A stretch of DNA of 64,000 nucleotides, taken from the NCBI RefSeq assembly GCF_021390155.1, contig NZ_CP089985.1, positions 6,209,118-6,273,117 of the forward strand. The letters run 5' to 3'. Below, in pieces: positions 10,397-30,181 of this stretch (position 1 is the first letter of the stretch; every line of letters begins with the position of its first letter). Origin of the DNA: Pseudomonas sp. HN11 (GTDB lineage: Bacteria; Pseudomonadota; Gammaproteobacteria; Pseudomonadales; Pseudomonadaceae). The translations under genes and the position numbers were made by a program. The notes beneath the pieces were generated by a model, which saw nothing but the letters and a program-made list of their open reading frames with translations, was not told the DNA's origin and made no database searches.

Positions 10397-10423
10397 CAGG
10401 TATTCCTCATCAGGGTTGGCCGG

Positions 10424-10828: not shown

Positions 10829-10862
10829 AGGGAGCGGTTCACGGGTCAGGCTGTGTTTTAAT

Positions 10863-10875
10863 GTTATAGTATAAC
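10863..10875. promoter_or_regulatory. Zur box between dksA2 and the secreted-protein gene
   Basis: GTTATAGTATAAC, extended to a 15-bp palindrome TGTTATAGTATAACA. It matches the zinc-uptake-regulator consensus of Pseudomonas (GTTATANTATAAC) fully. It overlaps sequences resembling a -10 box on both strands (TATAGT and TATACT), so zinc-bound Zur would block both divergent promoters. Confidence 0.88.
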
Positions 10876-10955
10876 AATGCAAATAAGCCAATCCCCTCTT
10901 GAACGCTACGACGAAGGGCGCAATGCTTGGATACTTCCCGACCTTGAGAAACCCG

Positions 10956-11324: not shown

Positions 11325-12523
11325 ACCTGACCGTTCTTCTGTTCCTGCACCCACGCCATGTAGCTGTTCATGGGTGGGTTCTTCTGGAAGTACTTCTTCA
11401 GGCCTTCGAACAGGCCATCGGCAACCGCCTGTTGATGACGCGCGGTGACCAGCCGTGCACTGTCCCGCGCGTTGGAAATAAACCCGGTTTCCACCAGGAT
11501 CGACGGCACGTCCGGTGACTTGAGCACCGCGAAACCCGCCTGCTCCACACGCTTCTGATGCAGGCTGGTGATGCCTTCCAGGCTACCCAGGATCGAGTTG
11601 CCCAGTTGCAGGCTGGAAGCGATGGTGGCGTTCATCGACATATCCAGGATCACCCCGGCGAGCATCGGGTCCTTGTCCTTCAGGTTGAGCAGGCTGGTGG
11701 CGCCGAGCAGGTCGGCGCCGTTTTCCCGTTGCGCCATGAACCGCGCCGTAGCTGATGTGGCGCCGCCTTCCGATAAGGCATATACCGAAGCGCCCGACGC
11801 GGTGATCCGTGGCGCCGCGTCCGCATGCACCGAGATAAACATATCGGCATTGTGCTTGTGGGCGATTTCCACGCGTTTGCGCAACGGTACGAAGAAGTCG
11901 TCGTTGCGCACCAACTTCACATCGAAGCCCTTCTCGCGCTTCAAACGTTTAGCCAGCAGTTGGGCGATGGACAGCACCACATCTTTTTCGCGCTGCCCCT
12001 TGGAGCCGACCGCACCTGGGTCTTTGCCGCCGTGGCCAGGGTCGACCACCACAATAATGTCACGCTTGGGGTGCGCCTTATCCACCAGCGCCTTGGGCTC
12101 GGCCGCAATCTGGCGAGGCGCCTGGGTGGCGCTGGTCAGGTCCAACACCAGGCGATGGCCTTGGCCATCCTGGGGCGGCAATAGAAAGCTGTTGAGCTGC
12201 ATCGGTGCGGCAAGGTCCAGCACGATGCGCGTATCGCCTTTGCCGAAATGCCCGGAGCGGATCGAGGTGATCCCGCTGTTTTTCAGCGCCAACTGAGAGA
12301 AATCACCACTGAGCCCGGCGCCGCTGAGGTCGATGATCAAGCGTTCCGGCGCGCTCAGGGTAAACGTCTTGTATTGGATCGGACCGCTGAGATCGAACAC
12401 CAGCCGCAGCTTGTCGTCCGAGCGCCACAGGCGGGCGTTGCTGATTTGCGTGGCGTGGGCGGTAAACGGCAAGGTGAACAGCGGGCTGGCCAGAAGCAAG
12501 TTTAGGAGCTGACGTCTGTGCAT
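11321..12523 (-). CDS. amiA: N-acetylmuramoyl-L-alanine amidase AmiA
   Basis: 400 aa. It cleaves the amide bond between MurNAc and the peptide in peptidoglycan, in the periplasm. Domains: signal peptide with a twin-arginine start (MHRRQLLNLLLASP), N-terminal AMIN domain (about residues 30-130, SNARLWRSDDKLRLVFDLSG), then Amidase_3 with the zinc ligands in VVDPGHGGKDPGA, Glu in QREKDVVLSIA, MFISVHADA, and the catalytic VETGFISN. The start at 12523 was preferred for the signal peptide; ATG 12562 is possible. The Zur box 83 bases upstream suggests a zinc-starvation paralogue of the usual amidase. Confidence 0.9.
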   Translation of the reverse strand: MHRRQLLNLLLASPLFTLPFTAHATQISNARLWRSDDKLRLVFDLSGPIQYKTFTLSAPERLIIDLSGAGLSGDFSQLALKNSGITSIRSGHFGKGDTRIVLDLAAPMQLNSFLLPPQDGQGHRLVLDLTSATQAPRQIAAEPKALVDKAHPKRDIIVVVDPGHGGKDPGAVGSKGQREKDVVLSIAQLLAKRLKREKGFDVKLVRNDDFFVPLRKRVEIAHKHNADMFISVHADAAPRITASGASVYALSEGGATSATARFMAQRENGADLLGATSLLNLKDKDPMLAGVILDMSMNATIASSLQLGNSILGSLEGITSLHQKRVEQAGFAVLKSPDVPSILVETGFISNARDSARLVTARHQQAVADGLFEGLKKYFQKNPPMNSYMAWVQEQKNGQV

Positions 12524-12606
12524 GAAAAATACCGCAAATAAAGGAGCGTCCCTACTCGACATGACTGAAAAAAGGCTGGAGCAGAAAAATCATCGTCGAC
12601 TCAATA

Positions 12607-12619
12607 GTTATAATATAAC
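12607..12619. promoter_or_regulatory. Zur box between amiA and folE2
   Basis: GTTATAATATAAC is a full match to the Pseudomonas Zur consensus. It contains TATAAT (12609-12614), a perfect -10 hexamer for the rightward folE2 operon, so Zur would sit on the promoter. It lies 32 bases before folE2 and 83 before amiA. Confidence 0.9.
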
Positions 12620-12651
12620 ATGTCTTTTTATTTCCAACGATGGACCTGCTC

Positions 12652-13542
12652 ATGAACGCGCTGACTCTGCCGGATATCGCCGCGCAGGCTTCACGCCAAG
12701 CCTTGCCACTCGACTGGGTGGGCATGTGCGGTATCGCCCTACCGATTCTTATCGACGGCCAGCGCTTGGCTGCAACCGCCGATGCCGGAGTGAGCCTGGA
12801 CGATGGCGCCGCCCGTGGCATTCATATGTCTCGCCTGTACCTGGCGCTGGGGATGCTCGACCAGCAACCGCTTACGCCCGCACTTCTGCGTACTGTACTG
12901 CAGCGTTTTCTCGACAGTCATGAAGGTTTATCTAATAACGCCTACCTACGCATCCACACCGATTTGCTGCTCAAACGCCCGGCGCTGGTCAGCCCGCTGG
13001 CCGGCTGGAAAGGCTACCCGGTGAGCATTGAAGCGCGCCTGGAAAACCAGATGTTCCACGTGGAACTAAAAATTGACGTTATTTATTCCTCAACGTGCCC
13101 ATGCTCCGCTGCCCTCGCCAGGCAGTTGATTCAGCAACAATTTCTCGGCGACTTCGCCAACACACCGTTGCAGCATGAAGACGTGTTGACCTGGCTTGGC
13201 AGCGCCAATGGCATCGTCGCCACGCCTCATAGCCAGCGCAGCAGTGCGCAGTTGCATGTCCAGTTGAATGGCGAGCAACTGCCGCTTACGGAATTGATCG
13301 ACACCGTCGAAGCCGCCCTGGGCACCGCCGTACAAACCGCTGTAAAACGCGCGGACGAACAAGCCTTCGCTTTGGCTAACGGGCAAAACCTGATGTTCTG
13401 CGAAGACGCCGCCCGCCGCTTGAACCTCGCCTTGAAACGCTCGGATGCGGTCAAAGCCTTCCACCTGAAAGTGATCCACGCCGAAAGCTTGCACGCGCAC
13501 GACGCCGTGGCTGAAAGCCGCTGGACGAGACACCCTGCATGA
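12652..13542 (+). CDS. folE2: GTP cyclohydrolase FolE2 (type IB)
   Basis: 296 aa. It converts GTP to dihydroneopterin triphosphate, the first step of folate synthesis, and replaces zinc-dependent FolE because the IB type can use Mn or other metals. Visible are the DWVGMCGIALPI start region, LKIDVIYSSTCPCSAALARQL containing the catalytic Cys, HSQRSSAQLHVQL, and NLMFCEDAARRL. An ATG at 12640 is an alternative start. It heads a Zur-box-controlled operon; the stop overlaps the next start as ATGA. A parS-like palindrome lies inside the gene. Confidence 0.94.
   Translation: MNALTLPDIAAQASRQALPLDWVGMCGIALPILIDGQRLAATADAGVSLDDGAARGIHMSRLYLALGMLDQQPLTPALLRTVLQRFLDSHEGLSNNAYLRIHTDLLLKRPALVSPLAGWKGYPVSIEARLENQMFHVELKIDVIYSSTCPCSAALARQLIQQQFLGDFANTPLQHEDVLTWLGSANGIVATPHSQRSSAQLHVQLNGEQLPLTELIDTVEAALGTAVQTAVKRADEQAFALANGQNLMFCEDAARRLNLALKRSDAVKAFHLKVIHAESLHAHDAVAESRWTRHPA
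13052..13067. promoter_or_regulatory. parS-like ParB binding site within folE2
   Basis: TGTTCCACGTGGAACT matches the 16-bp Pseudomonas parS TGTTCCACGTGGAACA at 15 of 16 positions; the inner 14 bp (13053-13066) are a perfect palindrome. It lies about 38 kb from parB and about 50 kb from oriC, inside the range where parS sites are found. It also encodes MFHVEL of FolE2, so chance or coding constraint is possible. Confidence 0.6.
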
Positions 13543-14207
13543 TCACCTGCACCGCTTTGCGCTGGGGCGCACCCGGCCAACCGCTGACACCCGCCATCGA
13601 CATTACCCTGGAAAAAGGCAGCCTCACCGGCATTATCGGTGCCAACGGCACCGGCAAAAGTAGCTTGCTCAAAGTCATCGCCGGCCTGCAAAAGCCGCTG
13701 TCGGGCAAAGTCAGCGTGGATGTTCCACGCCGTGGCGGCCTGTCATTCCTACCCCAGCAGCAACATTTGGATCGACAGTTTCCCATCAGCCTGCAAGAGC
13801 TGGTCGCCGCCGGTTTCTGGGGCACCCAACTCGCACCGCAACAACGCAGTCAGCGTCTTGAAGCGGTTCTGGAAGACTGGTGCCTGAATGGCCTGGAACA
13901 CCGTCCGCTAATGGCCTTATCTGGTGGCGAACTGCAACGCGCCCTGCTCGCCCGCATGAGCCTGGCCGAAGCTCCCGTGCTGTTGCTCGACGAACCCCAC
14001 GCCGCTCTTGATGAAGAAGGCCAGGTACTGTGCTGGAAACATATTCACGCCTGGCACCAGCAAGGCCGCACGTTGATCGTGGTCTGCCATGACCTCGCCT
14101 CAGTACGCCAGCACACCCAACAAGTGGTGCAGATCAAAAGCACCGGCTGCGTCTTCGGCTCGAGCAAAGAGCTGATCCGCCCGCAGTCACAGATGCAGGT
14201 GGCCTGA
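13539..14207 (+). CDS. Zinc ABC transporter ATPase (ZnuC-like)
   Basis: 222 aa. Walker A GANGTGKSS, Q-loop LPQQQHLDR, ABC signature LSGGELQRALLARMS, Walker B VLLLDEPHAALD, and H-loop VVCHDL. The organisation with a following membrane permease and periplasmic binding protein marks a metal ABC importer. It lies in the Zur-boxed folE2 operon, making zinc the expected substrate. Its stop overlaps the permease start (TGATG). This is probably a second system in addition to the usual zur-linked znuABC, which is not in the window. Confidence 0.9.
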   Translation: MITCTALRWGAPGQPLTPAIDITLEKGSLTGIIGANGTGKSSLLKVIAGLQKPLSGKVSVDVPRRGGLSFLPQQQHLDRQFPISLQELVAAGFWGTQLAPQQRSQRLEAVLEDWCLNGLEHRPLMALSGGELQRALLARMSLAEAPVLLLDEPHAALDEEGQVLCWKHIHAWHQQGRTLIVVCHDLASVRQHTQQVVQIKSTGCVFGSSKELIRPQSQMQVA

Positions 14208-15073
14208 TGCATTTTGCCGCCCACCTGTGGATGCCCTTCGTCGACTTCGTTTTCATGCGTCGCGCTTTGATTGGCGGGCTGGTACTCGCCTGCAGCACCG
14301 CGCCCTTGGGGGTATTCCTGATCCTGCGGCGCATGAGTCTGATCGGAGATGCCGTCGCCCACGGCATTCTGCCTGGTGCCGCACTCGGCTTCTGGTTTGC
14401 CGGCCTCAGCCTGCCCGCCTTGACCATCGGCGGCCTCGGCGCGGGCCTGGGTATGGCTGGCCTGTCCGCCTGGATTACCCGCCGCACCGGCCTGCGCGAA
14501 GACGCCAGCCTCGCTGCCATCTACCCCATCTCCCTCGCCGCCGGCGTATTGATCCTCGGCATCGCCGGCAAGCGCCTCGACCTGCTGCACCTGCTGTTCG
14601 GCTCTGCCCTGGCCGTCGACGAAACCACCCTCACGGGCATGCTTTGGGTTTCCAGCTTCAGCCTGATCACCATGGCCGCGATCTACAAACCGCTGCTGCT
14701 GGACACCCTCGACCCGTTGTTTCTGCAGACCGTCAGCCGCCTCGGCCCGCTGGCACACGGGTTGTTCCTGACCCTGGTGGTGCTGAACCTGGTGATCGGC
14801 TTCCAGGCCATCGGCGCCTTGATGGTGGTGGGTCTGATGATGTTACCGGCCATTGCTTCACGTTTCTGGAGCCGGCGCCTACCGGTGTTGATCGCGGTAT
14901 CGGCGGTGCTGGGATGCCTGTCGGTGTGGTTGGGTTTGTTGCTGTCGTTCTACTACTCGTTGCCCAGCGGCCCGGCCATCGTGCTAATGGCGGGTGCCGG
15001 GTATCTGCTGTCCGTGGTCTTCGGTCCGGTGCACGGCTTGCTGCGCCGCCCGCCCTTGCTGTCATCCCAATGA
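14207..15073 (+). CDS. Zinc ABC transporter permease (ZnuB-like)
   Basis: 288 aa, seven to nine hydrophobic helices. ABC-3 family landmarks are FMRRALIGGLVLACSTAPLG, LRRMSLIGDAVAHGILPG (the loop contacting the ATPase), LLFGSALAVD and AIGALMVVGLMMLPAIASRFW. It forms the inner-membrane channel with the preceding ATPase and the binding protein 11 bases downstream. Confidence 0.9.
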   Translation: MHFAAHLWMPFVDFVFMRRALIGGLVLACSTAPLGVFLILRRMSLIGDAVAHGILPGAALGFWFAGLSLPALTIGGLGAGLGMAGLSAWITRRTGLREDASLAAIYPISLAAGVLILGIAGKRLDLLHLLFGSALAVDETTLTGMLWVSSFSLITMAAIYKPLLLDTLDPLFLQTVSRLGPLAHGLFLTLVVLNLVIGFQAIGALMVVGLMMLPAIASRFWSRRLPVLIAVSAVLGCLSVWLGLLLSFYYSLPSGPAIVLMAGAGYLLSVVFGPVHGLLRRPPLLSSQ

Positions 15074-15084
15074 GGTGTTTCCCG

Positions 15085-15963
15085 ATGCGCGCTCTACTCG
15101 TACTGTTCAGTCTCGTCCTGTCGTTGTCGACGGCCCAGGCCGCAGACAAGCTCCAGGTGGTTACCAGCTTCAGCATCCTCGATGACATTACCCACCAGAT
15201 CGGTGGTGATCACATCCAGATCAGCAACATGGTCGGCCCCGACGCCGACGCCCACACCTACGAGCCAACGCCGGACAACGCGAAGGCGCTGCTCAAGGCC
15301 AAGCTGATCATCAAGAACGGCCTGGGCTTCGAGCCGTGGCTGGACCGGCTGGTGGCCAGCACTGAAACCAAGGCGACCGTGGTCACCGCCAGCAAAGGCG
15401 TGATTTCCCACACCATGGATGAGGATGGCGAGACCATTCCCGACCCGCACGCCTGGCACAACTTGGCCAACGCCGAAATCTATGTGAACAACATCACCAA
15501 GGCCTTGATCGCTGCCGACCCGGCCAACAAAAGCGACTATCAACACAACAGCCAAACCTACCTGAAAGAAATCTACCGCCTGCTGGCCGAAGCCAAAACC
15601 AAGTTCGGCGCCCTGCCAGCCGGTAACCGCCGCATCGTCACCTCCCACGACGCCTTCGGATACCTGGGCCAGGCTTACGGTATCGAGTTCCTCGCACCCC
15701 AGGGCCTGTCCACAGAACGTGAGCCGTCCGCTGCTGAAGTGGCCGCGCTGATCACCCAGATCCGCAAAGACAAGGTCAAAGCCGTGTTCATGGAAAACAT
15801 CAAGGATTCACGCCTGCTCAAGCAGATTGCTGACGAAAGCGGCGCGCGGATCGGCGGCACGCTGTACTCCGACGCCCTCGCCGCAGAAGGGCCAGCCAGC
15901 ACCTTTACCGGGCTGTTCGAATACAACCTCAATACTTTGTGCGCCGCCCTGATCAAGCCATGA
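15085..15963 (+). CDS. Zinc ABC transporter periplasmic binding protein (ZnuA-like)
   Basis: 292 aa. A signal peptide (MRALLVLFSLVLSLSTAQA) precedes a cluster A-I metal-binding fold. Likely metal ligands are His in DAHTYEPTP, His in DPHAWHNLAN, His in TSHDAFGYL and Asp in YSDALA. There is no His-rich loop like that of many ZnuA proteins; the segment between the first two histidines is short. The start at 15085 has GAGG 9 bases upstream; ATG 15070 would add five residues. The start of hisI2 overlaps its stop (ATGA). Confidence 0.9.
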   Translation: MRALLVLFSLVLSLSTAQAADKLQVVTSFSILDDITHQIGGDHIQISNMVGPDADAHTYEPTPDNAKALLKAKLIIKNGLGFEPWLDRLVASTETKATVVTASKGVISHTMDEDGETIPDPHAWHNLANAEIYVNNITKALIAADPANKSDYQHNSQTYLKEIYRLLAEAKTKFGALPAGNRRIVTSHDAFGYLGQAYGIEFLAPQGLSTEREPSAAEVAALITQIRKDKVKAVFMENIKDSRLLKQIADESGARIGGTLYSDALAAEGPASTFTGLFEYNLNTLCAALIKP

Positions 15964-16373
15964 CCCTGAGCATGCTTGACCTGGAAGAGGCTGCCGTCGG
16001 CAGCCGCTTTCCACTCGAACCCGTGCTCGATGCCCTGCCGTGGAACAGCGCTGGCCTGATCGCCGCCATCGCCCAGCAACACGGCAGCGGCGAGGTATTA
16101 ATGCTGGCCTGGATGAACCGCCAGGCCCTCCAGGAAACCCTGGGCACCGGGCAGGTCTGCTACTGGTCGCGCTCGCGCCAGCGGTTGTGGCGCAAGGGCG
16201 AACGCTCCGGTCATTGGCAACAGTTGGTGGAAGCACGCCTGGATTGCGACGGCGACGCAGTATTGCTGATCGTCGACCAACAGGGACCGGCCGGCCACAC
16301 AGGGCGGCCTACCTGCTTCTACAACGCCATCGACGGCGACTACGTTCACATCATTACGGAGCCCTTAGCATGA
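15960..16373 (+). CDS. hisI: Phosphoribosyl-AMP cyclohydrolase paralogue (HisI2)
   Basis: 137 aa. The family hydrolyses phosphoribosyl-AMP in histidine synthesis. The body is recognisable (LMLAWMNRQALQETL, CYWSRSRQRLWRKGE, ARLDCDGDAVLLIVDQ). HisI uses three Cys to hold zinc: one in DCD, one in ACHTG and one in SCF. Here the second is Gly (GPAGHTGRPTCF), while the other two remain. Location in the Zur operon suggests a low-zinc paralogue of the main hisI. Overlaps both neighbours by ATGA. Confidence 0.88.
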   Translation: MTLSMLDLEEAAVGSRFPLEPVLDALPWNSAGLIAAIAQQHGSGEVLMLAWMNRQALQETLGTGQVCYWSRSRQRLWRKGERSGHWQQLVEARLDCDGDAVLLIVDQQGPAGHTGRPTCFYNAIDGDYVHIITEPLA

Positions 16374-16930
16374 TCCGCAAAAACCCGTCCGGCGATCTGC
16401 CCGTGATTGCCGAATCGGCCTACGTCGACAAGACCGCCATCATCTGCGGGAAGGTCGTCATTGGCGAAAATGTTTTCGTCGGCCCCTACGCCGTGATCCG
16501 CGCCGACGAAGTCGACGCCAGCGGTGGTATGGACCCGATCATCATCGGCGCCAACTCCAATATCCAGGACGGCGTGGTCATCCACTCCAAGTCCGGGGCG
16601 GCGGTGACCATCGGCGAGTTCACCTCCATTGCACACCGTTCCATCGTCCACGGCCCCTGCACCGTCGGCGACCGCGTGTTCATCGGCTTCAACAGCGTGC
16701 TGTTCAACTGCGCCGTGGGCGATGGTTGTGTGGTGCGCCACAACTCGGTGGTCGACGGCCGCGACTTGCCTGCCGCGTTCTACGTGCCCTCCACCACCCG
16801 CATCGGGCCCAACACCGACCTCTCGCAATTCCCGCCGGTGAGCGTGAGCGCCTCGGAGTTTTCCGAAGACGTGGCACGCACCAACGTTGACCTGGTGCGT
16901 GGCTACAAAGCCTTGCAAAACGAGTTCTGA
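16370..16930 (+). CDS. Gamma-class carbonic anhydrase family protein
   Basis: 186 aa. Left-handed beta-helix hexapeptide repeats (IICGKVVIGENVFVGPYAVI onward). The three His ligands of the gamma class are placed as expected: VVIHSK, then AHRSIVHG with a five-residue step. The C-terminal helix ends the protein. Gamma enzymes can use iron or cobalt, so a role as a substitute for zinc-dependent beta carbonic anhydrase under zinc limitation is a fair inference from its Zur-operon position. Activity itself is not shown by sequence. It is 3 bases from pyrC2. Confidence 0.88.
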   Translation: MIRKNPSGDLPVIAESAYVDKTAIICGKVVIGENVFVGPYAVIRADEVDASGGMDPIIIGANSNIQDGVVIHSKSGAAVTIGEFTSIAHRSIVHGPCTVGDRVFIGFNSVLFNCAVGDGCVVRHNSVVDGRDLPAAFYVPSTTRIGPNTDLSQFPPVSVSASEFSEDVARTNVDLVRGYKALQNEF

Positions 16931-16933
16931 CCC

Positions 16934-18271
16934 ATGAGCCGCCTGTTGATCCGCAACGCCCGCCTGGTGAATGAAGGCCAGACATTCGACGCCGATGTGT
17001 TGGTCGCCAATGGTCGTATCGAAAAGATCGCCAGCAGTATCCAGGACCATAACGCGCCTGTCGCCATCGACGCCCAAGGCCAATGGCTGCTGCCCGGTAT
17101 GATCGATGACCAAGTGCACTTTCGCGAACCTGGCGCGCCGGACAAAGGCAGTTTCTACAGCGAATCCCGCGCAGCAGTGGCCGGCGGCATCACCAGCTTC
17201 ATGGACATGCCCAACACCCGCCCGGCCACCCTCGACCTGGACGCCCTGGCCGACAAAAAGCGCCGCGCTGCCCTGCACTCGGTGGCCAACTATGGATTTC
17301 ATTTCGGCGTGAGCAACGACAACCTCGACACCGTCGCCGCCCTCGACCCGCGCGAGGTGGCTGGGGTCAAAGTCTTCATGGGCGCCTCGACCGGCAATAT
17401 GTTGGTGGATGATCCACGGATCCTGGAGCGCCTGTTTGCCGAAGTCCCCACTATCTTGCTGGCCCATTGCGAACACACGCCAAGCATCCAGGCCAACGAG
17501 CTGCGGCTGCGCGAGCGTTTCGGCGAGCACATCCCCGCCGTCGCCCATCCGCTGATCCGCGATGCCGAGGCGTGCTATCGCTCGTCATCCTTTGCAGTGG
17601 AATTGGCCAAACGCCATGGCACCCGCCTGCACGTACTGCACCTCACCAGCGCCCGTGAACTGGCGCTGTTCGAAGACAAACCCTTGTGCGAAAAACGCAT
17701 CACCGCCGAAGTCTGCCTGCACCACCTGCTGTTCGATGACCGCGACTATCACCGTCTTGGGCACCAGATCAAATGCAACCCGGCAATCAAGACCCGTGCC
17801 GACCGTGACGCCTTGCGCCAAGCCTTGTTGAGTGATCGTCTGGACGTGATTGGCAGTGACCATGCGCCGCATACATGGGCGCAAAAACAATTGGGTTATC
17901 GCGAGGCGCCGTCGGGATTGCCTCTGGTGCAGCACGCGCTGCCGGCATTGTTGGAGTTGGTGGCCGACGGGCTGCTGCCGCTGACCACCCTAGTGGCAAA
18001 AACCAGCCACCGGGTGGCCGACCTGTTCGCCATCCCGGATCGCGGTTATCTACGTGAAGGGTATTGGGCCGACCTGGTGCTGATCAAACCGGAGCCCGAA
18101 GGCAAACACGTCAGCAGCCAGCCGATCCTGGCCCGCTGCGGCTGGACGCCCTTCACCGAGCGCAGCTTTCGCCACAGCGTCAGCACCACCCTGGTTTCCG
18201 GCCACTTGGCCTGGCACAACGGCCAAGTGGTGGACAGTTGCCAGGGCTTGCCTCTGCATTTTCTGCGTTAA
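16934..18271 (+). CDS. Dihydroorotase paralogue (PyrC2/PyrQ type)
   Basis: 445 aa amidohydrolase catalysing carbamoyl-aspartate to dihydroorotate in pyrimidine synthesis. Motifs: GMIDDQVHFREPG (about residue 57), the carboxylated Lys in VKVFMGAST, HCEHTP, VLHLTSA, and the catalytic Asp in GSDHAPHT. In most dihydroorotases the first motif is DxHVH; here the first His is Gln (DQVH), leaving one of the two His ligands. The substitution also occurs in a known dihydroorotase subgroup. Last gene of the Zur operon; it overlaps the convergent DUF3617 gene by 4 bases. Confidence 0.9.
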   Translation: MSRLLIRNARLVNEGQTFDADVLVANGRIEKIASSIQDHNAPVAIDAQGQWLLPGMIDDQVHFREPGAPDKGSFYSESRAAVAGGITSFMDMPNTRPATLDLDALADKKRRAALHSVANYGFHFGVSNDNLDTVAALDPREVAGVKVFMGASTGNMLVDDPRILERLFAEVPTILLAHCEHTPSIQANELRLRERFGEHIPAVAHPLIRDAEACYRSSSFAVELAKRHGTRLHVLHLTSARELALFEDKPLCEKRITAEVCLHHLLFDDRDYHRLGHQIKCNPAIKTRADRDALRQALLSDRLDVIGSDHAPHTWAQKQLGYREAPSGLPLVQHALPALLELVADGLLPLTTLVAKTSHRVADLFAIPDRGYLREGYWADLVLIKPEPEGKHVSSQPILARCGWTPFTERSFRHSVSTTLVSGHLAWHNGQVVDSCQGLPLHFLR

Positions 18272-22117: not shown

Positions 22118-22906
22118 CTATGGGGCTCGGCGCTCGAGCAAACCGTCTTGGACCCACTGTTTAAGCCATGTGACAGCCTGCAGTGGCGCACCCTCTGCAT
22201 AAGTGACTGCCAACGCCGCACACAGTTCGGCAAAGCTCCAACCGGTCGTCACCATGCCTGCCAGCGCATACGCCTCTGCCGACTCAAGGCTACGGTAATG
22301 GCAGACATTCTGATGGCGCCACACCAGGCACGTCTGCGCCGGGGCCAGTGCATGGCTGTCGGGGAAGTCGGATTCATCCTTGCTGGCACGCCAGATCGCT
22401 ACGCTGTTGAATCGGCACAGCAGCTCTTGCACCGTCGGCGCCAGGCAAACCTGCAACACCGGCCACGCCTGCGGCGGCAGCGATGCCATATCGTTCAGCG
22501 TCAGCGGTTGGCCCCGCGGTGCATCAAATGCCAGGGTAAACGACCATTCCAAACGCGCCAGCTCCGCCAATGGCGCACCCTGCTCAGCCACCAGATGCTC
22601 AAGGATAAACGCCGGGAAACGCTCGCCCAGCCAACGCAGGCTGTAATGAGCCGAGGGGTAGCGCCGCAGGTAGGCCTCGGTCAACGCGGCAAATTCTTCA
22701 TCACCCAGCCAATAAAGGGTGGCGCTGAAGTCATGCCGCAAGACTTCCTGCAACCGTGAAAGATAGGCGTTGTGGTAAATCGCCAGGCCCGTGTCCACAT
22801 CCAGCGTCGGCCCGCCTAATAGAGTGGCGGCAAAAACACTGTTGGGCACTGCCGTGTCGGCTAACAAGTGCTGTTCGAAAGCCAACTGCCAATCGATCAG
22901 GCGCAT
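22118..22906 (-). CDS. DUF2063 protein, MNIO partner (BufC/HvfC-like)
   Basis: 262 aa. The N-terminal DUF2063 region shows GLAIYHNAYLSRLQEVLRHD, LYWLGDEEFAALTEAYL and YSLRWLGERFPAFI. Members act with DUF692 (MNIO) enzymes, binding the precursor peptide so that its cysteines can be modified. It overlaps the MNIO gene by 10 bases and is the third gene of bufA-bufB-bufC on the minus strand. Alternative name: putative DNA-binding domain protein, an older family label without good support. Confidence 0.85.
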   Translation of the reverse strand: MRLIDWQLAFEQHLLADTAVPNSVFAATLLGGPTLDVDTGLAIYHNAYLSRLQEVLRHDFSATLYWLGDEEFAALTEAYLRRYPSAHYSLRWLGERFPAFILEHLVAEQGAPLAELARLEWSFTLAFDAPRGQPLTLNDMASLPPQAWPVLQVCLAPTVQELLCRFNSVAIWRASKDESDFPDSHALAPAQTCLVWRHQNVCHYRSLESAEAYALAGMVTTGWSFAELCAALAVTYAEGAPLQAVTWLKQWVQDGLLERRAP

Positions 22907-23742
22907 AACGGCCTCCTGGCCAGGGCCGTCCTGCCCAGTTCGCGGGCCTTGCTCAGTTCAGTGAGCAACTCTTCAAAAGGTGGGAAATGGTCGTCCCGCT
23001 CCAGTAGCGTCGACACCGGCCCCAGATGCTCAAGCGTTTGTTGATAAAGCACCCACACCGGATCGCACACGGGATGGTCATGGGTGTCGACCACGTAATC
23101 GCCGTAATCCATATGCCCCGCCAGATGCAGTTGGCGGATGCTTTCCGGTGGCAGGTTGCGGATAAACGTCCAGGCATCGAAGCCATGGTTGCGCGAGCTG
23201 ACATACACATTGTTGACGTCCAGCAACAACTGGCAGCCTGACAGATGGGTCAGGGCATTGAGGAATTCCCACTCAGTGAATTCGTCCGCCTTCGAGCGCA
23301 CATAACTGGAGACGTTTTCCAGCACCAGCGGGCGTTGCAGCACGTCTTGCACTTGGCGGACACGGGCGGCCACGTGGTAGAGGCTTTCTTCGGTATAAGG
23401 CAGTGGCAGCAGGTCATGCAACTGGTGGGCGCTGCCACGGCTCCAGCACAGATGATCGGAAATCCACGACGGCTGGATACGCTCGGCGAGCTGTTTGATT
23501 TGTTTCAGGTAATCGGTATCAAGGGCATGGGGCCCACCGATGGACAGGGATACACCGTGCATCACCAAGGGATAGCGCTCGGCTATCGCATCCAGGTAAT
23601 ACAAGGCTTTACCGCCCTGGATCAAGTAATTCTCGGAGATCACTTCGAACCAATCCACGCCTGGCGATTGTTCAAGGATCTGCTGATAGTACTCACTGCG
23701 TAAACCCAGGCCGTAACCGAGGCTCGGAACAGAGGTAGGCAT
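22897..23742 (-). CDS. MNIO family enzyme (DUF692, BufB/HvfB-like)
   Basis: 281 aa TIM barrel of the multinuclear non-haem iron oxidase family, which modifies Cys in ribosomal peptides. Visible conserved parts: GYGLGLRSEYYQQIL, FEVISENYL, MHGVSLSIGG (His), SDHLCW, LENVSSY (Glu), LLLDVNNVYVSSRNHGFD (Asp, Asn, His), HLAGHMDYG, DTHDHPV. These carboxylates and histidines are the expected iron ligands. The start at 23742 has AGGAG 6 bases upstream; a longer in-frame extension is repetitive and antisense to the precursor region, so it was rejected. Confidence 0.92.
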   Translation of the reverse strand: MPTSVPSLGYGLGLRSEYYQQILEQSPGVDWFEVISENYLIQGGKALYYLDAIAERYPLVMHGVSLSIGGPHALDTDYLKQIKQLAERIQPSWISDHLCWSRGSAHQLHDLLPLPYTEESLYHVAARVRQVQDVLQRPLVLENVSSYVRSKADEFTEWEFLNALTHLSGCQLLLDVNNVYVSSRNHGFDAWTFIRNLPPESIRQLHLAGHMDYGDYVVDTHDHPVCDPVWVLYQQTLEHLGPVSTLLERDDHFPPFEELLTELSKARELGRTALARRPLCA

Positions 23743-23807
23743 AAGACACTCCTGGGAAAGTGTCCGCAGCGGTGGGGGCGACCGCTGCGGGTGCACTCGT
23801 TTGTCGG

Positions 23808-24062
23808 TTACTCGCCGACTGTACCGCCAGCCTTGGTGCACGCATCGGCACTGGCCATCGCCTTGAAGCCTTGGCCTTTGCAAGAACCTTGGCCTTTGCA
23901 GGCGTGGTCCTTGGTTTTGCAGTCGTTCTGGCCTTTGCAAGCGTTGATGCCGTAGCAGTGAACCGCTGTGTCAGCGGCTTGAACCTGAGTGACAACACCG
24001 GCAAACATGGTAGCGGCGGCCATTGCGAGAGCGGCACCAGCAGCAGCGGATTTGATGTTCAT
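23808..24062 (-). CDS. Bufferin-like RiPP precursor (BufA family)
   Basis: 84 aa. A typical signal peptide (MNIKSAAAGAALAMAAATMF ... QVQA) is followed by a Cys-repeat core: HCYGINACKGQNDCKT, then ACKGQGSCKGQGF, then DACTKAGG, six Cys in all with CKGQ three times. Precursors of this kind are secreted and, after Cys modification by MNIO enzymes, bind copper or other metals. The ATG 24062 has GAGGA 8 bases upstream; ATG 24077 is less likely. The MNIO gene begins 65 bases downstream on the same strand. Confidence 0.87.
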   Translation of the reverse strand: MNIKSAAAGAALAMAAATMFAGVVTQVQAADTAVHCYGINACKGQNDCKTKDHACKGQGSCKGQGFKAMASADACTKAGGTVGE

Positions 24063-24178: not shown

Positions 24179-26065
24179 TTATTCTTCGAGCTTCAAAAGC
24201 GGTTCTTGAAAACGCAGCAAACGCCCGGCATTGCCCAGTACCAGCAAGGTGCTGAGGTTATGCAACACCGCTGCAATCATGGCGCCCGCCGCGCCCAACC
24301 AACCGAACGCGGCGAACACGACAATGGCCAGGGTCCAACCCAGGCCGATGATCACGTTCACCTGCAAGGTCTGCCGGCACTGGCGACTCAAACGCACACA
24401 GGTGCCCAGACGCCGCAAGTCACTGCCGATCAACACCACATCAGCTGATGCCAAGGCAATATCTGCCCCGCCCGCGCCCATGGCCACGCCGACCACACCC
24501 GCCTTGAGCGCCAAGGAGTCGTTGATGCCGTCGCCCACCACCATCGGGCGGAAGCCGCTGCCAATTTCTCCCAACACGCGGTTGAGCTTGTCTTCGGGCA
24601 AGGCCTGGGCTTCGACATCGCTGATGCCTACCTCCAGCGCCAGGCTGGTGGCCACGCTTTGACGATCACCGGTAAGCAGCAGTTGGCGACCGAGACCGAG
24701 ATCGCGCAGTTCTTGCAGCGCCTGGCGTGCCTCCGGCTTGACACTGTCGGCCAGCAGCAACCAGGCGAGGAATTGCCCATTCAGCGCAAGCCCCGCGATG
24801 GGGCCATCGTGGTTCGGTACAGAGGTGGTGACGATGCCCAGTTGCTCGAACAATTCCGGGCGCCCCAAGGCCGCTTCGCCCTGATCGGTCTGCGCCACGA
24901 CGCCCAGCCCCTGACGCTCACGAATGGCCGTCAACGCCAGCAGTTGCTCCTGCGTGGCCAAACCCGCCAACGCCCGACTGACCGGATGGCTACTCGCTGA
25001 GCCCAGGCTGGCCGCCAGATTCAGCAGCCCCTGCCGATCCGGCGCAGTGGTCTCGATGGATTGCAGGCGCAAGGTGCCGAAGGTCAGCGTTCCAGTCTTG
25101 TCGACCACCAATGAAGTCAGGTCGGCCAGCTCCTCCAGAAACGCCGAGCTGCGAATCAGAATCCCATGCCGCGCCGCGACTGCTATCCCGGCGATCGCCG
25201 TGGCCGGTGCCGACAGCACCAGCGCGCATGGGCACGCGGCCACCAGCACGGCGAGCATCGCCTGGGGGTCGTTGGTCACAAACCAGGTCACCGCCGCCAG
25301 CAACAATACCAACACCATATAGCTGCCGGCATAGCGTTCCAGCAGCCGTGTGATCGGTGGCTTGGAGCGCTCGGCGTTCTGCATCAGCGCGATGACTTTG
25401 CCCAAGGTGGATTCGTTACCCGTGCGGGTCACTTGCAGACGCAGCAGGCCATCAAGGTTGATCGCCCCGCCAAACACCTGCATGCCCACACTGGCTTCCA
25501 ACGGCACCGACTCACCGGTAATCGGCGCCGTGTCCAGGCTCGCCTGGCCCGACAGCACCACGCCGTCAGCCGGCACGCGGTCACCGGCACGCACCTCGAC
25601 CACATCACCGGTGTTCAGCGTGCCGTTATCCACCTCAACAATGCTGCCGTCAGCCTGCACCAGACGCGCATGGCTGCGCGTCAGCTTGCCCAACGCGTGG
25701 ATGGCTTCCTGGGAACCGATCACGCTGCGCTCTTCCAGCACGTGACCGAAGATCATGATAATCGGCAGCAACGCCGCAGTCAGTAGATCCCCTGTGGCCC
25801 AGGCACCGAGCATGGCCAGGGCGATCAGTTGGTCGGTGATGCCATGCAGGCTGGGAAACCGCAGGCTGTACCAGGCCGAACGCATCACTGGCACGGCCAC
25901 CAGCAACGACGCGACGCCCAGCAGCAGTTGGCTCACACCGATCTGGTCCGGCGCCAGCCAACGCCATACCAGCCCCAGTACCAACAAACCCAAAGCCAAC
26001 ATGGCCAGGGTCAATTGCCGGGCAGCGCTGCGCTGTTCGGCTGAGGTCAGCATGGGTGCGCTCAT
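24179..26065 (-). CDS. Heavy-metal P1B-type ATPase
   Basis: 628 aa. Membrane helices at about 17-75 and 80-115, actuator TGES, the metal-translocating CPC (ACPCALVLSAP, about residue 277), phosphorylation motif DKTGTLT (about 321) and GDGINDSLALKAG. There is no N-terminal HMA or His-rich metal-binding domain, which is short for the family. In the last helix the motif is HNLSTLLVLGNA, not the HD/HDGST of zinc exporters such as ZntA, so the metal is uncertain. Overlaps the preceding SPFH gene by ATGA; fourth and last gene of that operon. Confidence 0.9.
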   Translation of the reverse strand: MSAPMLTSAEQRSAARQLTLAMLALGLLVLGLVWRWLAPDQIGVSQLLLGVASLLVAVPVMRSAWYSLRFPSLHGITDQLIALAMLGAWATGDLLTAALLPIIMIFGHVLEERSVIGSQEAIHALGKLTRSHARLVQADGSIVEVDNGTLNTGDVVEVRAGDRVPADGVVLSGQASLDTAPITGESVPLEASVGMQVFGGAINLDGLLRLQVTRTGNESTLGKVIALMQNAERSKPPITRLLERYAGSYMVLVLLLAAVTWFVTNDPQAMLAVLVAACPCALVLSAPATAIAGIAVAARHGILIRSSAFLEELADLTSLVVDKTGTLTFGTLRLQSIETTAPDRQGLLNLAASLGSASSHPVSRALAGLATQEQLLALTAIRERQGLGVVAQTDQGEAALGRPELFEQLGIVTTSVPNHDGPIAGLALNGQFLAWLLLADSVKPEARQALQELRDLGLGRQLLLTGDRQSVATSLALEVGISDVEAQALPEDKLNRVLGEIGSGFRPMVVGDGINDSLALKAGVVGVAMGAGGADIALASADVVLIGSDLRRLGTCVRLSRQCRQTLQVNVIIGLGWTLAIVVFAAFGWLGAAGAMIAAVLHNLSTLLVLGNAGRLLRFQEPLLKLEE

Positions 26066-27096
26066 TGTTCGGCTCCCTGGATGATCAAGCGGGAGTCGTC
26101 TTTCGGATCGACCGTGGTCACGGCACCGGCCTGGCCGAGAATCTTCGGCAAGCGCTCGCGGTACAGACGCAGCAGCAGGCCCGGGTCTTTCACCTTGGCC
26201 AGGCTGACGACGGTCGCGGTTTGCGCCTGGGCGTTGGCCAGACGCTCGCTGGCCTGGGCGTGGGCGACTTGCACCAGGCGGTCGGCCTGCTGAGTCGCGG
26301 TCTGGGTGAGTTTTTCCGCGTCGGTGCGCGCGTTGGCCACGGCCTTGTCGGCTTGCTGGCTGGCCGTCAGTACGGCGTTAAAGGCATTCACCGCCGGGCC
26401 CGGCAGGCTCGATTGCACATCGACACGGGTCACTACGATGCCCAGTCCCAAGCCTGTGGAAGCCAGTTCCGTGAGGCGTTTATTGATGCCTTGCACCAAG
26501 TCGCCGCGCAACCGTTCACGGCGTTCGGCGGCGCCGTTGTCGGTGCCGATCAATTCAGGTCGCGCTACCAAAATAGTGTCCAAGTCCCGCGCCGCGGTGA
26601 GCGCCACGGCGCTGCGCGTCACCAGCCTGTCCAGGGCCGGCAACACATGATCGCCCTGCAACACAAACGCATAGGGTTCGGTGACCTTGTAGAACACCCG
26701 AACATCCAGTTGCACCACACCGGCATCCCCCGTTAGCAGGTAACCGGAACCGGCCAGCGCATCACTCAACGGCGTGGCGAAACTGGCTACACGGTCGGCC
26801 TGGATCGCCGCGTCGGAGCGCAGCAGGTTCTCCACACGGCGTTCGATCACGCGGTCAGCCGCCGGAAGCAACACCACCTGCTCGAACGGCTGCGGCCACG
26901 CCAGCAACAGCCCGGCATTCTGGATGCGGTCGAGCGCGCCGAAATGCAGGACCACTGCACGGTTCTGCGGGTCGATCTGGCGCACATTGGAAAACGCCCA
27001 GGCCAATGCCGCCAATACCGTCACCGCGTACAACGCCAGGAAGGTCAAACGCCCGGCCTGGATCCATGGGCTGTCCGGGCTGGCACGCTCAGTCAT
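26062..27096 (-). CDS. SPFH domain protein (HflK/HflC-like), third SPFH gene
   Basis: 344 aa. One membrane helix (LTFLALYAVTVLAALAWAFS) then an SPFH/band 7 domain (VRQIDPQNRAVVLHFGAL), ending with an Ala/Gln coiled coil (KAVANARTDAEKLTQTATQQ). HflK and HflC form a membrane cage around the FtsH protease; this is a paralogue away from the hflX locus. It overlaps the ATPase start and the preceding gene's stop (ATGA both sides), so the products are made together. Confidence 0.85.
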   Translation of the reverse strand: MTERASPDSPWIQAGRLTFLALYAVTVLAALAWAFSNVRQIDPQNRAVVLHFGALDRIQNAGLLLAWPQPFEQVVLLPAADRVIERRVENLLRSDAAIQADRVASFATPLSDALAGSGYLLTGDAGVVQLDVRVFYKVTEPYAFVLQGDHVLPALDRLVTRSAVALTAARDLDTILVARPELIGTDNGAAERRERLRGDLVQGINKRLTELASTGLGLGIVVTRVDVQSSLPGPAVNAFNAVLTASQQADKAVANARTDAEKLTQTATQQADRLVQVAHAQASERLANAQAQTATVVSLAKVKDPGLLLRLYRERLPKILGQAGAVTTVDPKDDSRLIIQGAEQ

Positions 27097-28079
27097 GGCT
27101 GGACGTCCTTCGGCCCGTCCACCAAGGCGCGGAACGGTGCGGCGTCGGTGCGCAGGATGATTTTGGTACCTGGAGTGACCACGGTGCCCAAGGTGTCGAG
27201 AGACCGCAGCAAGTTGTAAAGCTGTGGATTACCCGCATAGGCACGGCCATAGATCTGCGCCGCTTCGACCCGCGATTGCGCTTCGATATCGGCAGCCTTC
27301 ACCGTGGCATCGGCCTGCACAATCCGCGCATCACGCTCGGCGGCGGAACGGATCTGCGCGGCTTCACGCTTGCCCACGGCGGTGCGTTCGGTGGCGATGG
27401 TTTCACGCTCGGCGCGCATGCGGTCGACCGTGGCGGTAAGGGTCACTGATGGCAAAGTGAGCCGCTCGATACCCACCTGGGCTACACGCACGCCATAGGT
27501 GGCGAGCAATTGTTGATCAATCTGCTGGCGCAACTGCGCTTCGAAATCAGCGATGCGCACTTGGCTGGCGTCAGTGTTGATCAGGCTGGACAGGTCGAAG
27601 CTGGCCGCCGTGGTTTCCAGCGCCGAGCCAACGAAGGTGCGAATCTGCCGCGCCGCTTCATCTGGCTGGTTCTGCACGGCGCGCATAAAGCGTTGCACGT
27701 TGTCCGCGTCGCCCTGCACCTGCCACGCCACGTACGCCTGCACGATGATGCGCAGTCCGTCGCGGGTGCCCACATCCTGCAAACCGCTGGAGGTGGTGCG
27801 CAGACGCAAATCCACCGGGATCGCCGCCTCGAACGGCGCCGGCCAGCACCAGCCAAGGCCCGGCTCCAACAGCACCCGCGACGGGTTACCGAAACGGGTA
27901 ATCACCGTGGCCTCGCCGGAACGCACTTGCACGAGGCTGGCGGCGGCAACCGCAAACAGCACCAGCAACAGCGCCCAGGCCATACGCCGCCAGGGGAACG
28001 GGCCGGCCGCTTGTTCATCACCGTGATGATGGTGGTGATGACCGTGATGATGACCGTGATCGTGAGAATGAGCGCTCAA
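27093..28079 (-). CDS. SPFH domain protein with His-rich N-terminus
   Basis: 328 aa. The first 20 residues carry a run of His (HDHGHHHGHHHHHHGD), a likely cytoplasmic metal-binding tail. Next are a membrane helix (MAWALLLVLFAVAAASLV) and an SPFH domain (EATVITRFGNPSRVLLEPGL) with the HflC-like RTVDRMRAERETIATE and RDARIVQADATVKAADIEAQ helix. His-rich tails on SPFH proteins are unusual and fit the Zur-like box of this operon. Overlaps the next gene by ATGA. Confidence 0.87.
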   Translation of the reverse strand: MSAHSHDHGHHHGHHHHHHGDEQAAGPFPWRRMAWALLLVLFAVAAASLVQVRSGEATVITRFGNPSRVLLEPGLGWCWPAPFEAAIPVDLRLRTTSSGLQDVGTRDGLRIIVQAYVAWQVQGDADNVQRFMRAVQNQPDEAARQIRTFVGSALETTAASFDLSSLINTDASQVRIADFEAQLRQQIDQQLLATYGVRVAQVGIERLTLPSVTLTATVDRMRAERETIATERTAVGKREAAQIRSAAERDARIVQADATVKAADIEAQSRVEAAQIYGRAYAGNPQLYNLLRSLDTLGTVVTPGTKIILRTDAAPFRALVDGPKDVQP

Positions 28080-28091
28080 CAGACAGACTCC

Positions 28092-29996
28092 TTATTGAAC
28101 GGCTTTACGCGGCACCGAGGGATCGGCCGGCAAGGTAAAAGAACGCAGATCGATCGTCGGCGCGCCGTCGGCACCGAGGCGATGATCCAGAATCAGCAGC
28201 TTGGCATGGGCCAGGCCCTGGCTGAGTTGACCGAGATACTGTTCCAGCACAAACGCCTGGCCGGCCGTGGCGTAGGCCTTTTGTTCGGCGGCGAAGCGCA
28301 GATTGGCCGCTTGCGCGCCCGCGTTCACTTCGCGGGCAGTGGCGGTGGCCTGGTCGCGGACGGTGCTGGCTTGCAGCAACGCTTGGTTGGTGTGTTCGCT
28401 GGCCGCGCCGCGCTCACGGGAGATCAGGGCCTGGGCGCCGATCTGTGCAGCCTGCACACCGTGATAAGCGTTGGCGGCTCCGGCCGGTGGGTGGATCGCC
28501 TCCACCACCGTGGCGAGAATTTCTACGCCGCTGTCGAGTTTTTGCAGGTCGGCCTGCACAGCGCGGCCAATTTCCTCGGCCAGGCTGGTGCGTTGTTCGC
28601 CGAGCAATTCGTCGAGGGTGCGCGAGGCAAAATCATGCACGAGGATGCGGCTGGCGATGCTGCGGATCAGGGTCGGTACGTCCGCGCTGTTATAGGTGGC
28701 GGCGAGCGCGGCCTGGTCGGTGAGGCCGATGCGGTAGACGAACCGCACATCCATATTGACGATCTGGAAGCTCTGTTTGTCGCCGCTGCTGCTGGCGATC
28801 ACCTGGGACTTGTCATTCACATGGCTGGCGTCCCACAAGCGATTGGCAATCAACGGCGCCGGGCCTTCGGCAGGGGCCAGTTCCGGCGTGGCGGCTTCGC
28901 TGACGCTGGTAGCCAATTCATGCACCACACCGTTTTCCACGCTGATCACGCGGCCCAATGGCCACGGCAACCCCGCATGCAAGCCAGGGCCGAAGACCTG
29001 CACCGGCTTGCCGAAACGTTCATAGATCCCACGGCCTTGCAGGGGCACTTCGTGCACGCCGGTGAGCGCCCAGCCTACCGCCAATACCACCAACAACACG
29101 GGAAGGAACGCCCGGCGCATGTAGGTAAACGCCCAGATCTGACGCAGGTCGATGCCAAAGCGGTTGTGCAATTCATGTTGCAACGCGAGCAAGGGTTGCG
29201 GCGGCCAGCGCAACAGCCCGGCGATAAAGCTTTGCGCCATCAGGCGGGGTTCCAGGCGTGGCTGGCGTGGGCTGAACAGGGACAGCACCGCTCTTGATAG
29301 AAACTCCAGCGAGACGAGTGCCGGCAGCAAGCCGATCAATACGGCCACCCTCAGGGGCCAGACTGAGTTTGCACCGGCAAACAGCAGACACACCGCACTG
29401 ACCACCAGGCAAATAATCGCCACCCGGCTCAACTGCGCCAGTTGCGAGGCTTCGGGCCATTGCGCTGCGGTCTCCTGTGCAAGACAGCGTTCAAACACCA
29501 GCAACCCGAACGCCAATCCCAACCCCAGCGCAGCACCGATGCTTGCCGATTGACCGACCGTTGCGGCGGGCAAGGCCAGGTTCCAGAACTCGACAAGGCT
29601 GACCAGCGCCAGCAACGACCAGCCGCCGAGCCACAATACCGGCGCGCCGATCTGTTGGCCAAAACGCTGCGCAAGGCGCGCATACCGGCTTGCGTCTTCA
29701 ACCGGCACATCAACCGACGGTTCTTCCAACGCCTGGGCACGCCAATCCGCCACCCACCACGCCGATTGCAAACCCGCCACCAGCAGCAACAATGCCGACG
29801 CACAGTTGATCAACACCACCGGCCAGATCGACAACGGCGCAAACAACGCGACAAACAGCGCCAGCACCCAGCCGGCAACGGCCAACACCGTCAGGCTGAT
29901 ACCGGCCCGGCGCAATCGACGGGCATGGAACAGCCCTTGTTGAAACCGCGGAAGGCCTTCCACCGAAGCGCCGTCAGCTTCCAGATCCACTTGCAT
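28092..29996 (-). CDS. Multi-spanning SPFH domain protein (HflK-like)
   Basis: 634 aa from ATG 29996; a TTG at 30020 would add eight residues. The N-terminal ~300 residues are hydrophobic, with about six membrane helices, and are not part of typical HflK. A further helix (FLPVLLVVLAVGWALTGV) leads into the SPFH domain (PLQGRGIYERFGKPVQVFGPGLH), then a long Ala/Gln/Glu helix (RERGAASEHTNQALLQ). First gene of the four-gene leftward operon; the Zur-like box lies 28 bases upstream. Confidence 0.82.
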   Translation of the reverse strand: MQVDLEADGASVEGLPRFQQGLFHARRLRRAGISLTVLAVAGWVLALFVALFAPLSIWPVVLINCASALLLLVAGLQSAWWVADWRAQALEEPSVDVPVEDASRYARLAQRFGQQIGAPVLWLGGWSLLALVSLVEFWNLALPAATVGQSASIGAALGLGLAFGLLVFERCLAQETAAQWPEASQLAQLSRVAIICLVVSAVCLLFAGANSVWPLRVAVLIGLLPALVSLEFLSRAVLSLFSPRQPRLEPRLMAQSFIAGLLRWPPQPLLALQHELHNRFGIDLRQIWAFTYMRRAFLPVLLVVLAVGWALTGVHEVPLQGRGIYERFGKPVQVFGPGLHAGLPWPLGRVISVENGVVHELATSVSEAATPELAPAEGPAPLIANRLWDASHVNDKSQVIASSSGDKQSFQIVNMDVRFVYRIGLTDQAALAATYNSADVPTLIRSIASRILVHDFASRTLDELLGEQRTSLAEEIGRAVQADLQKLDSGVEILATVVEAIHPPAGAANAYHGVQAAQIGAQALISRERGAASEHTNQALLQASTVRDQATATAREVNAGAQAANLRFAAEQKAYATAGQAFVLEQYLGQLSQGLAHAKLLILDHRLGADGAPTIDLRSFTLPADPSVPRKAVQ

Positions 29997-30023
29997 CCAC
30001 TTATGTCCGCTCGCACACAATTA

Positions 30024-30036
30024 GTTACGATATAAC
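30024..30036. promoter_or_regulatory. Zur-like box upstream of the SPFH/ATPase operon
   Basis: GTTACGATATAAC differs from the consensus GTTATANTATAAC at two positions (5 and 6). It lies 28 bases from the start of the first SPFH gene, the same distance range as the two perfect boxes in this window. The rightward neighbour starts 146 bases away and is less likely to be the target. Confidence 0.65.
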
Positions 30037-30181
30037 ACAAGGCGTGAAATTTTTGTTTGCTTAGAGGCAGACCGTGACTAACCCCCCAGAAACACACGCC
30101 ATCACTGGTGCAGGCCACGATTAATCGGCACACTCCAGAACAGTTTTTCGCGGGTCCACAGACAAGGAAGCGTCACCTCCC

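Follow-up and report, generated by a model that had tools for sequence, protein, structure and literature searches.

A 64,000-nucleotide stretch of the genome of Pseudomonas sp. HN11 (contig NZ_CP089985.1; "the window", to which all coordinates refer) carries on its minus strand an operon of four genes. The first three encode membrane proteins with an SPFH domain (SPFH1, SPFH2, and SPFH3), the last encodes a P1B metal ATPase, and a Zur-like box lies upstream (Table 1). As judged from the sequences compared, the locus is an orthologue of the Pseudomonas aeruginosa HmtA operon PA2439-PA2434. That three SPFH proteins and a P1B ATPase are encoded together, as an earlier reading made from the sequence alone (the sequence-only reading) had claimed, was confirmed with Pfam and NCBIfam models: all three SPFH proteins exceeded the gathering score of Band_7, and the pump, in which Pfam also found P-type ATPase domains, exceeded the cut-offs of TIGR01525 (525.4 bits vs. 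346.25) and TIGR01512 (489.4 vs. 313.5). The four genes had further been described as overlapping; this holds for two of the three junctions (4 nucleotides (nt) each) but not for SPFH1 and SPFH2, which are separated by 12 nt. Translation of SPFH1 can start from the ATG at 29996 (634 amino acids (aa)) or from a TTG at 30020 (642 aa), and the former was preferred because an ATG is found at that position in 106 of the 118 loci from the window's genus.

Table 1. Features of the HmtA-type operon and of the genes that follow it (positions in the window).
Feature	Position	Strand	Remarks
Upstream promoter element AACAAAAATTTCAC	30044..30057	-	7 bp from Zur box; box-anchored conserved columns
Zur box GTTATATCGTAAC	30024..30036	-	at least 9 of 12 positions kept in 117 of 118 genus loci
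SPFH1	28092..29996	-	seven-helix HflK-like protein, 634 aa from ATG, PA2439-like; Band_7
SPFH1 six-helix membrane domain	29262..29945	-	residues 26-253 (642-aa numbering); predicted CDF/ZnT-like fold
SPFH2	27093..28079	-	HflC-like, 328 aa from TTG, one transmembrane helix, PA2438-like; Band_7
SPFH2 His-rich N-terminal arm	28020..28070	-	predicted to lie on the cytoplasmic side; His counted in first 45 aa
SPFH3	26062..27096	-	HflK-like, 344 aa, one N-terminal transmembrane helix, PA2437-like; Band_7
ATPase (hmtA orthologue)	24179..26065	-	P1B metal ATPase, 628 aa, CPC motif; TIGR01525 and TIGR01512
bufA-like precursor	23808-24062	-	84 aa; assigned by reading
bufB MNIO maturase	22897-23742	-	NF050167 above cut-off
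bufC-like DUF2063 protein	22118-22906	-	

Distribution of the module and conservation of its operator

The distribution of the module was determined in 199 genomes of the window's genus and in a sample of 398 genomes from its phylum, some genomes belonging to both samples. In the genus, the search with SPFH1 at E ≤0.001 matched 123 genomes, of which five with weak matches (28-30% identity) were set aside, and the search with the ATPase at E ≤1e-120 returned 118; the resulting sets were identical (118 of 199 genomes). SPFH1 (E 1e-20) and the ATPase (E 1e-150) were each found in 11 genomes of the phylum sample, again the same ones. A total of 129 loci was compared: 118 from the genus, among them the window, and 11 that belong to other genera of its family or to two further families. 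The survey of gene order called for by the sequence-only reading was run on these loci, and the order SPFH1-SPFH2-SPFH3-ATPase was kept in all 129, including that of P. aeruginosa PA7. Being found in the same genomes and in the same order, the pump and the SPFH proteins would appear to be genetic partners, a conclusion strongly supported by these comparisons. The pairwise distances of the four proteins correlate with r = 0.93-0.97 over 126 loci (L108, L124, and L132 were dropped here and from the analysis of histidine columns below), a correlation calculated without a control gene and which may reflect species history alone. Buttiauxella, Cedecea, Sodalis, and Entomomonas are further organisms for which SPFH1 relatives are named. 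In L132 (genome G034), SPFH1 is divided between two frames, and in L176 SPFH2 consists of two adjacent open reading frames (ORFs); both are broken or frame-shifted copies.

The near end of the box GTTATATCGTAAC lies 28 nt upstream of the SPFH1 ATG, the distance given by the sequence-only reading; its score proved to be 10 of 12 positions relative to GTTATANTATAAC, not 11, and it differs from GTTATRNNATAAC by one mismatch. At least 18 distinct places in the genome match GTTATRNNATAAC with 0-1 mismatch, and 279+306 places match it with at most two (reversed control: 603+585, so that the motif is the rarer). A single box of such quality is not rare in the genome and alone would prove little; its conservation exceeds chance. 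The best 13-mer near the SPFH1 start scored 10/12 or more in 108 of the genus loci, 9 in nine, and 6 in one, and Markov-resampled upstream regions reached a score of at least 9 in 6.4% and of at least 10 in 0.55% of cases; these loci are related by descent, and the counts are hence not independent. The box is kept upstream of the orthologous operon in 117 of 118 genus loci, at a distance from the start that varies from approximately 38 to 131 nt, and a chance box was rejected on the strength of this conservation. The sequence-only reading had named absence of the box from orthologous operons as a refutation; these loci do not bear that out. When the loci were aligned on the box (125 of 129, four with a box score below 9 being left out), 11 of its 13 columns were conserved to 92-100% and the two middle ones to 74 and 78%, vs. 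29-56% for the columns from 8 nt beyond the box. Among the 11 distant loci, a clear box is present in L176 (11/12) and in L175 and L169 (10 each), and a weak or doubtful one in L170 (8/12 at -65), L173, and L174 (8/12).

A second block, approximately AACAAAAATTTCAC, is located 7 bp upstream of the box and matches at 9 or more of 14 positions in 121 of the 129 loci (box position set by hand for L170 and L173). The window's genome holds a single perfect copy of AACAAAAATTTCAC, at the HmtA-type operon. A single composite TTTCAC-N7-GTTATANNGTAAC is present per genome in 96 of the 199 genomes (reversed control: 0). In 96 of the 118 operon loci the composite begins 51-129 nt ahead of SPFH1; all 96 genome sites are thus accounted for, and the composite is private to the operon. 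As to what the second block is, one might guess at a second, degenerate Zur site or at a -35 region of unusual type. At the Zur box itself, scanning for promoters revealed no sigma-70 consensus site. In the window's genome, a FUR-family gene adjoins znuCB and znuA and was taken as zur by this neighbourhood; the zur-znuA intergenic region contains a 9/12 box, where chance alone would give 0.24 matches of this level.

Properties of the SPFH proteins and of the pump

The closest relatives in the PDB are HflK for SPFH3 and HflC for SPFH2; the C-terminal part of SPFH1 is HflK-like and adopts the SPFH fold in the predicted model. Assignment of the three proteins as HflK or HflC proper was rejected, because all of them fall far below the NCBIfam equivalog cut-offs (HflK, 159.4: SPFH1 60.4, SPFH3 89.6; HflC, 134.4: SPFH2 90.7). 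Separate HflK- and HflC-like genes are present elsewhere in the genome. Relative to the HflK/HflC cage around FtsH (E. coli, 7wi3 and 9cz2), the SPFH fold and the predicted topology (N terminus inside, SPFH domain periplasmic) are shared, whereas the window's operon has three SPFH genes, a six-helix domain on SPFH1, a His arm on SPFH2, equivalog scores below the cut-offs, and a metal pump where FtsH would be the partner.

SPFH1 contains seven hydrophobic helices, six of them ahead of the HflK-like one, in agreement with the roughly six extra membrane helices noticed by the sequence-only reading. Comparison of two AlphaFold models by Foldseek/VIA-align showed a resemblance of these six helices to zinc transporters of the CDF/ZnT type, and the domain is accordingly predicted from the models to fold like them. 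SPFH1 was nonetheless rejected as a CDF protein: PF01545 (Cation_efflux) was not matched by SPFH1, which matched Band_7 alone in Pfam, but by two other genes of the genome, and a profile search of the PDB with the membrane domain gave no CDF match. Compared with YiiP and ZnT1, the domain is distinguished by the lack of a Pfam or profile match, the lack of evident D/H ligands, and the SPFH domain behind it. Six histidine columns of SPFH1 are kept at 98% or more over the 126 loci, all of them past the last helix; mapped by order and spacing, they correspond to residues 367, 400, 462, 510, 520, and 613, of which only 462 is also a histidine in the genome's HflK-like protein (395 aa).

SPFH2 is His-rich, as claimed earlier, but the segment is its N terminus and not a tail; it is predicted to be cytoplasmic from the single transmembrane helix that follows it. 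At least eight histidines are found in the first 45 aa in 129/129 loci (12 in the window), as opposed to none in the corresponding stretch of the HflK-, HflC-, and QmcA-like proteins (named by reading) elsewhere in the same genome.

The pump shares the P1B architecture, the CPC motif (129/129 pumps), and a TIGR01512 score above the cut-off with the P1B-2 exporters ZntA and CadA. It does not reach the cut-off of the ZntA exception model NF033775 (283.4 vs. 1240), and, unlike these exporters, it carries T, T, and H where ZntA (aligned to 4umv) has E202, K693, and D714. In the alignment, the CadA-like pump of the same genome (L133) has E, K, and D at these positions. The motifs surrounding T/T/H are widely kept, with DLxTA in 129/129, IGLGWT in 124/129, and HNxST in 127/129 pumps, the two sequences without HNxST stopping short of that point. 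Counted from the position aligned to the first residue of the window's pump, the first 70 aa of the pumps contain 0-3 histidines; counted from the earliest possible start, the number is zero in 76 of 129 loci, window included. A short His-rich N terminus is found in L166-L174 and in L131, which are distant relatives, and is absent from the window's lineage; the stretch may have been lost in that lineage, or the metal site may have shifted to SPFH2.

Comparison with the HmtA operon of Pseudomonas aeruginosa

The comparison was made with P. aeruginosa PA7 (NC_009656.1, L177), not with PAO1. Orthologous genes are present in the window's order, with identities to the PA7 locus (L170/L177) of 56% for SPFH1, 82% for SPFH2, 68% for SPFH3, and 79-80% for the ATPase; SPFH1 of L177 is 100% identical to that of L170. 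A Zur-type promoter is likewise common to both loci, the box being stronger in the window (10/12) than in PA7 (8/12 at -65). The window differs in lacking a 205-aa gene between SPFH3 and the pump as well as a 221-aa gene after the pump, and its pump lacks the short His-rich N terminus of the PA7 pump. An extra ORF of 150-205 aa at the position of PA2436 was observed in L167, L168, L170, L171, and L172, that is, in five of the seven loci of the genus that contains PA7; no ORF of at least 100 aa is found there in L166 and L169. The PA7 gene order fits PA2439-PA2438-PA2437-(PA2436)-PA2435-PA2434 as tabulated in the available part of PMC4542158, in which PA2435 is given as HmtA. Identity between the PA7 pump and a cluster of 1424 proteins from P. 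aeruginosa is 94%; the name HmtA is in none of the names visible for the 120 matches listed in that search.

Published data on the P. aeruginosa genes are given here as they stand in the available parts of the papers. The operon is not new as a Zur target: PA2434-PA2439 were listed in 2015 as induced 5.6-14.4 fold in a znuA mutant, with a Zur site termed weak (E 0.11; PMC4542158). Zur shifts the PA2439 promoter in an electrophoretic mobility shift assay, completely only with zinc (PMC8531726), and Zur control, as suspected in the sequence-only reading, is supported by this shift together with the conservation of the box. A review states that Zur binds all uptake promoters except that of hmtA (PMC10393844), which sits oddly with the shift. 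Proteins of the operon were raised in zinc depletion, PA2438 (data-dependent acquisition, DDA) and PA2439 being called significant in the text and the available tabulated values lying below 0.05 for PA2438 in DDA only (PMC11761036); the three SPFH genes were modestly induced by N-acetylcysteine (log2 0.6-0.8), within the Zur regulon (PMC9431628). HmtA itself is reported, in papers that cite the original work, to import zinc and copper in P. aeruginosa, and according to the review its overexpression raises cellular zinc and copper (PMC10393844). The SPFH genes have been named PaFlo5-PaFlo7 (PA14_33070/33080/33110; PMC13086221, 2026). Of ten other Pseudomonas reference genomes, that paper finds the operon in P. 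knackmussii and P. syringae only, as against 118 of 199 genomes of the window's genus here; HmtA, Zur, and ATPase have no occurrence in its main text, in so far as this was available.

New here are the exact co-occurrence of pump and SPFH1 at the cut-offs used and their constant gene order, the conservation of the box within a composite operator, the universal His arm of SPFH2 beside the shorter one of some pumps, the predicted CDF-like fold, and the loss of the ZntA residues. A search of the open-access literature (subscription papers being mostly outside it) yielded no paper that links the SPFH trio functionally to HmtA, and none in which the composite operator, the CDF-like domain of SPFH1, or the His arm of SPFH2 is described.

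Possible roles of the module and its neighbourhood

The existence of a four-gene module with a conserved Zur operator is well supported by the sequence comparisons. The reading preferred for it, the chance of which is put slightly below even, is that of a Zur-derepressed ring of SPFH1-3 that houses or docks the importer HmtA and feeds it via His arms. When zinc is scarce, Zur would release the operator, and the three SPFH proteins would be made together with the pump. SPFH1-3 would form an HflK/C-like ring with the SPFH domains as a periplasmic dome, and HmtA, inside or against this ring and docked via the CDF-like six-helix domain of SPFH1, would move zinc, possibly also copper, inward. The many cytoplasmic His arms of SPFH2 might catch the zinc at the cytoplasmic mouth and hand it on; in the window's lineage the arm would be the sole such site, and in PA7 and other distant relatives the pump would add its short His-rich stretch. 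Within the dome, zinc may be collected by the invariant histidines on the periplasmic side of SPFH1. Cage, His-arm handover, CDF-like docking, and inward direction are what we infer from the features described above. In favour of this reading are the orthology and constant gene order, the identical genome sets of pump and SPFH1, the conserved operator, the FUR-family gene beside the znu genes, the published responses to Zur and to zinc starvation, the rise in cellular zinc and copper on HmtA overexpression, the His arm of SPFH2, the T, T, and H residues of the pump, the HflK-like SPFH fold, and the CDF-like helices. The sequence-only reading had also proposed an SPFH scaffold around a metal pump: its genetic side is borne out by the shared genomes and gene order, whereas a physical cage is well motivated but unproven. 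It had also found it odd that an exporter should be made under zinc scarcity. This paradox was rejected; it is largely answered in print, because the pump is the orthologue of HmtA, which is reported to be an importer, although the review asks for confirmation (PMC10393844, available part). In its most specific form, the preferred reading makes the three SPFH proteins a dedicated inner-membrane compartment around a zinc-importing P-type ATPase, with a degenerate CDF-like domain in SPFH1 and zinc-binding arms in SPFH2, as the transport counterpart of the HflK/C-FtsH cage; taken as a whole, this picture is offered tentatively, as something that could well turn out otherwise.

Several points weigh against the ring-and-importer reading. 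The zinc ligands of CDF proteins are D/H residues in helices 2 and 5, and no such set is evident in these helices of SPFH1 (by reading, with no residue-level structural alignment). The match of the domain to CDF proteins is one of fold only, at approximately 10% identity, the structural Z being of a size that helical bundles can reach by chance, and an hhalign comparison of this domain with two of the genome's own CDF proteins gave a probability of 0.2%. Co-occurrence of the pump and the SPFH proteins indicates linkage, not contact, and the loss of the ZntA residues does not by itself show the direction of transport. At least four histidines before or near the first helix are present in 35 of 129 pumps, among them that of PA7 and those of most distant loci examined, and the SPFH2 arm is therefore not a simple family-wide replacement of a missing site. 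From the published side, as far as the sources were available, one study found that hmtA mRNA stays low throughout, with no repression upon zinc addition (PMC8531726); the inward direction of HmtA, an unusual one, is said to need confirmation (PMC10393844); and a PA14 mutant without the three SPFH genes had merely subtle phenotypes, with less biofilm and attenuation in Galleria, no zinc assay for this mutant being found in the available part of the paper (PMC13086221).

HmtA might instead export zinc, as nearly all P1B pumps do, for assembly and not for detoxification: when zinc is scarce, the His arms would concentrate cytosolic zinc and pass it via HmtA into an SPFH-enclosed periplasmic space in which essential zinc proteins of the membrane or periplasm are metallated. 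The P1B family normally exports (TIGR01512 above cut-off; PMC10393844, available part), and His stretches on the cytoplasmic side (SPFH2 129/129, pumps 35/129) would suit a pump fed from the cytosol; this is countered by the hypersensitivity and raised intracellular zinc and copper reported on HmtA overexpression in the same source, by T, T, and H in place of E/K/D of ZntA, and by the grouping of the pump with uptake and zinc-sparing genes. Such an assembly role is considered rather improbable, if deserving of attention. It is unlikely, too, that the three SPFH proteins act as an HflK/HflC variant for zinc starvation, adjusting membrane quality control or the zinc protease FtsH, with HmtA in the operon for co-regulation alone. 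A role of this kind has been proposed in print for the P. aeruginosa genes (PMC11761036 and PMC9431628, available parts) and would agree with the kinship to HflK/HflC in sequence and fold, but the equivalog cut-offs are missed by a wide margin, the genome has other genes of the HflK and HflC type, the His arm is absent from these, and SPFH1 and the HmtA-type pump always occur together in the two genome samples at the cut-offs used.

An operon mainly for copper, with copper import by HmtA and a Zur link of secondary importance, would account for the reported import of copper besides zinc and the absence of repression by zinc (PMC8531726 for the latter, available part). The bufferin-type genes that follow the operon (RiPP, ribosomally synthesized and post-translationally modified peptide, genes; 22118-24062, minus strand) would also fit, bufferins being reported, in the partly available literature, to chelate excess copper; a bufA-like gene was matched downstream in 41 of 129 loci. 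Against this stand the operator found, which is a Zur box, and the buf genes themselves, which begin at least 100 bp downstream under a conserved upstream region of their own without a Zur box; no bufA match was obtained in the other 88 loci. The copper explanation is accordingly regarded as very improbable. As part of the operon, the bufferin genes were rejected on the gap of at least 100 bp in all 41 bufA loci and the lack of a Zur box (best 8/12).

To our knowledge, no P-type pump is better known than HmtA for a claimed inward transport of transition metals. Should SPFH1-3 be partners of HmtA, studies of the pump in their absence may mislead, and PaFlo5-7, with their subtle phenotypes under standard conditions (PMC13086221, available part), would gain a testable role in zinc starvation; SPFH cages would also extend from proteases to metal transport.

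Further genes in the neighbourhood were noted. A zinc-sparing island (7537-18271) lies a few kb away, with perfect Zur boxes at positions 10863-10875 and 12607-12619; its genes, identified by reading and not with profiles, are of the COG0523-type GTPase, dksA2-, amidase-, folE2-, zinc ABC transporter-, gamma-carbonic anhydrase-, and pyrC2-like kinds. Neighbours resembling cfa and cardiolipin synthase genes are present in 104 of the 118 genus loci, and an island gene of the pyrC2-, folE2-, or zinc ABC permease-like type is found within the fetched stretch in 78 of them.

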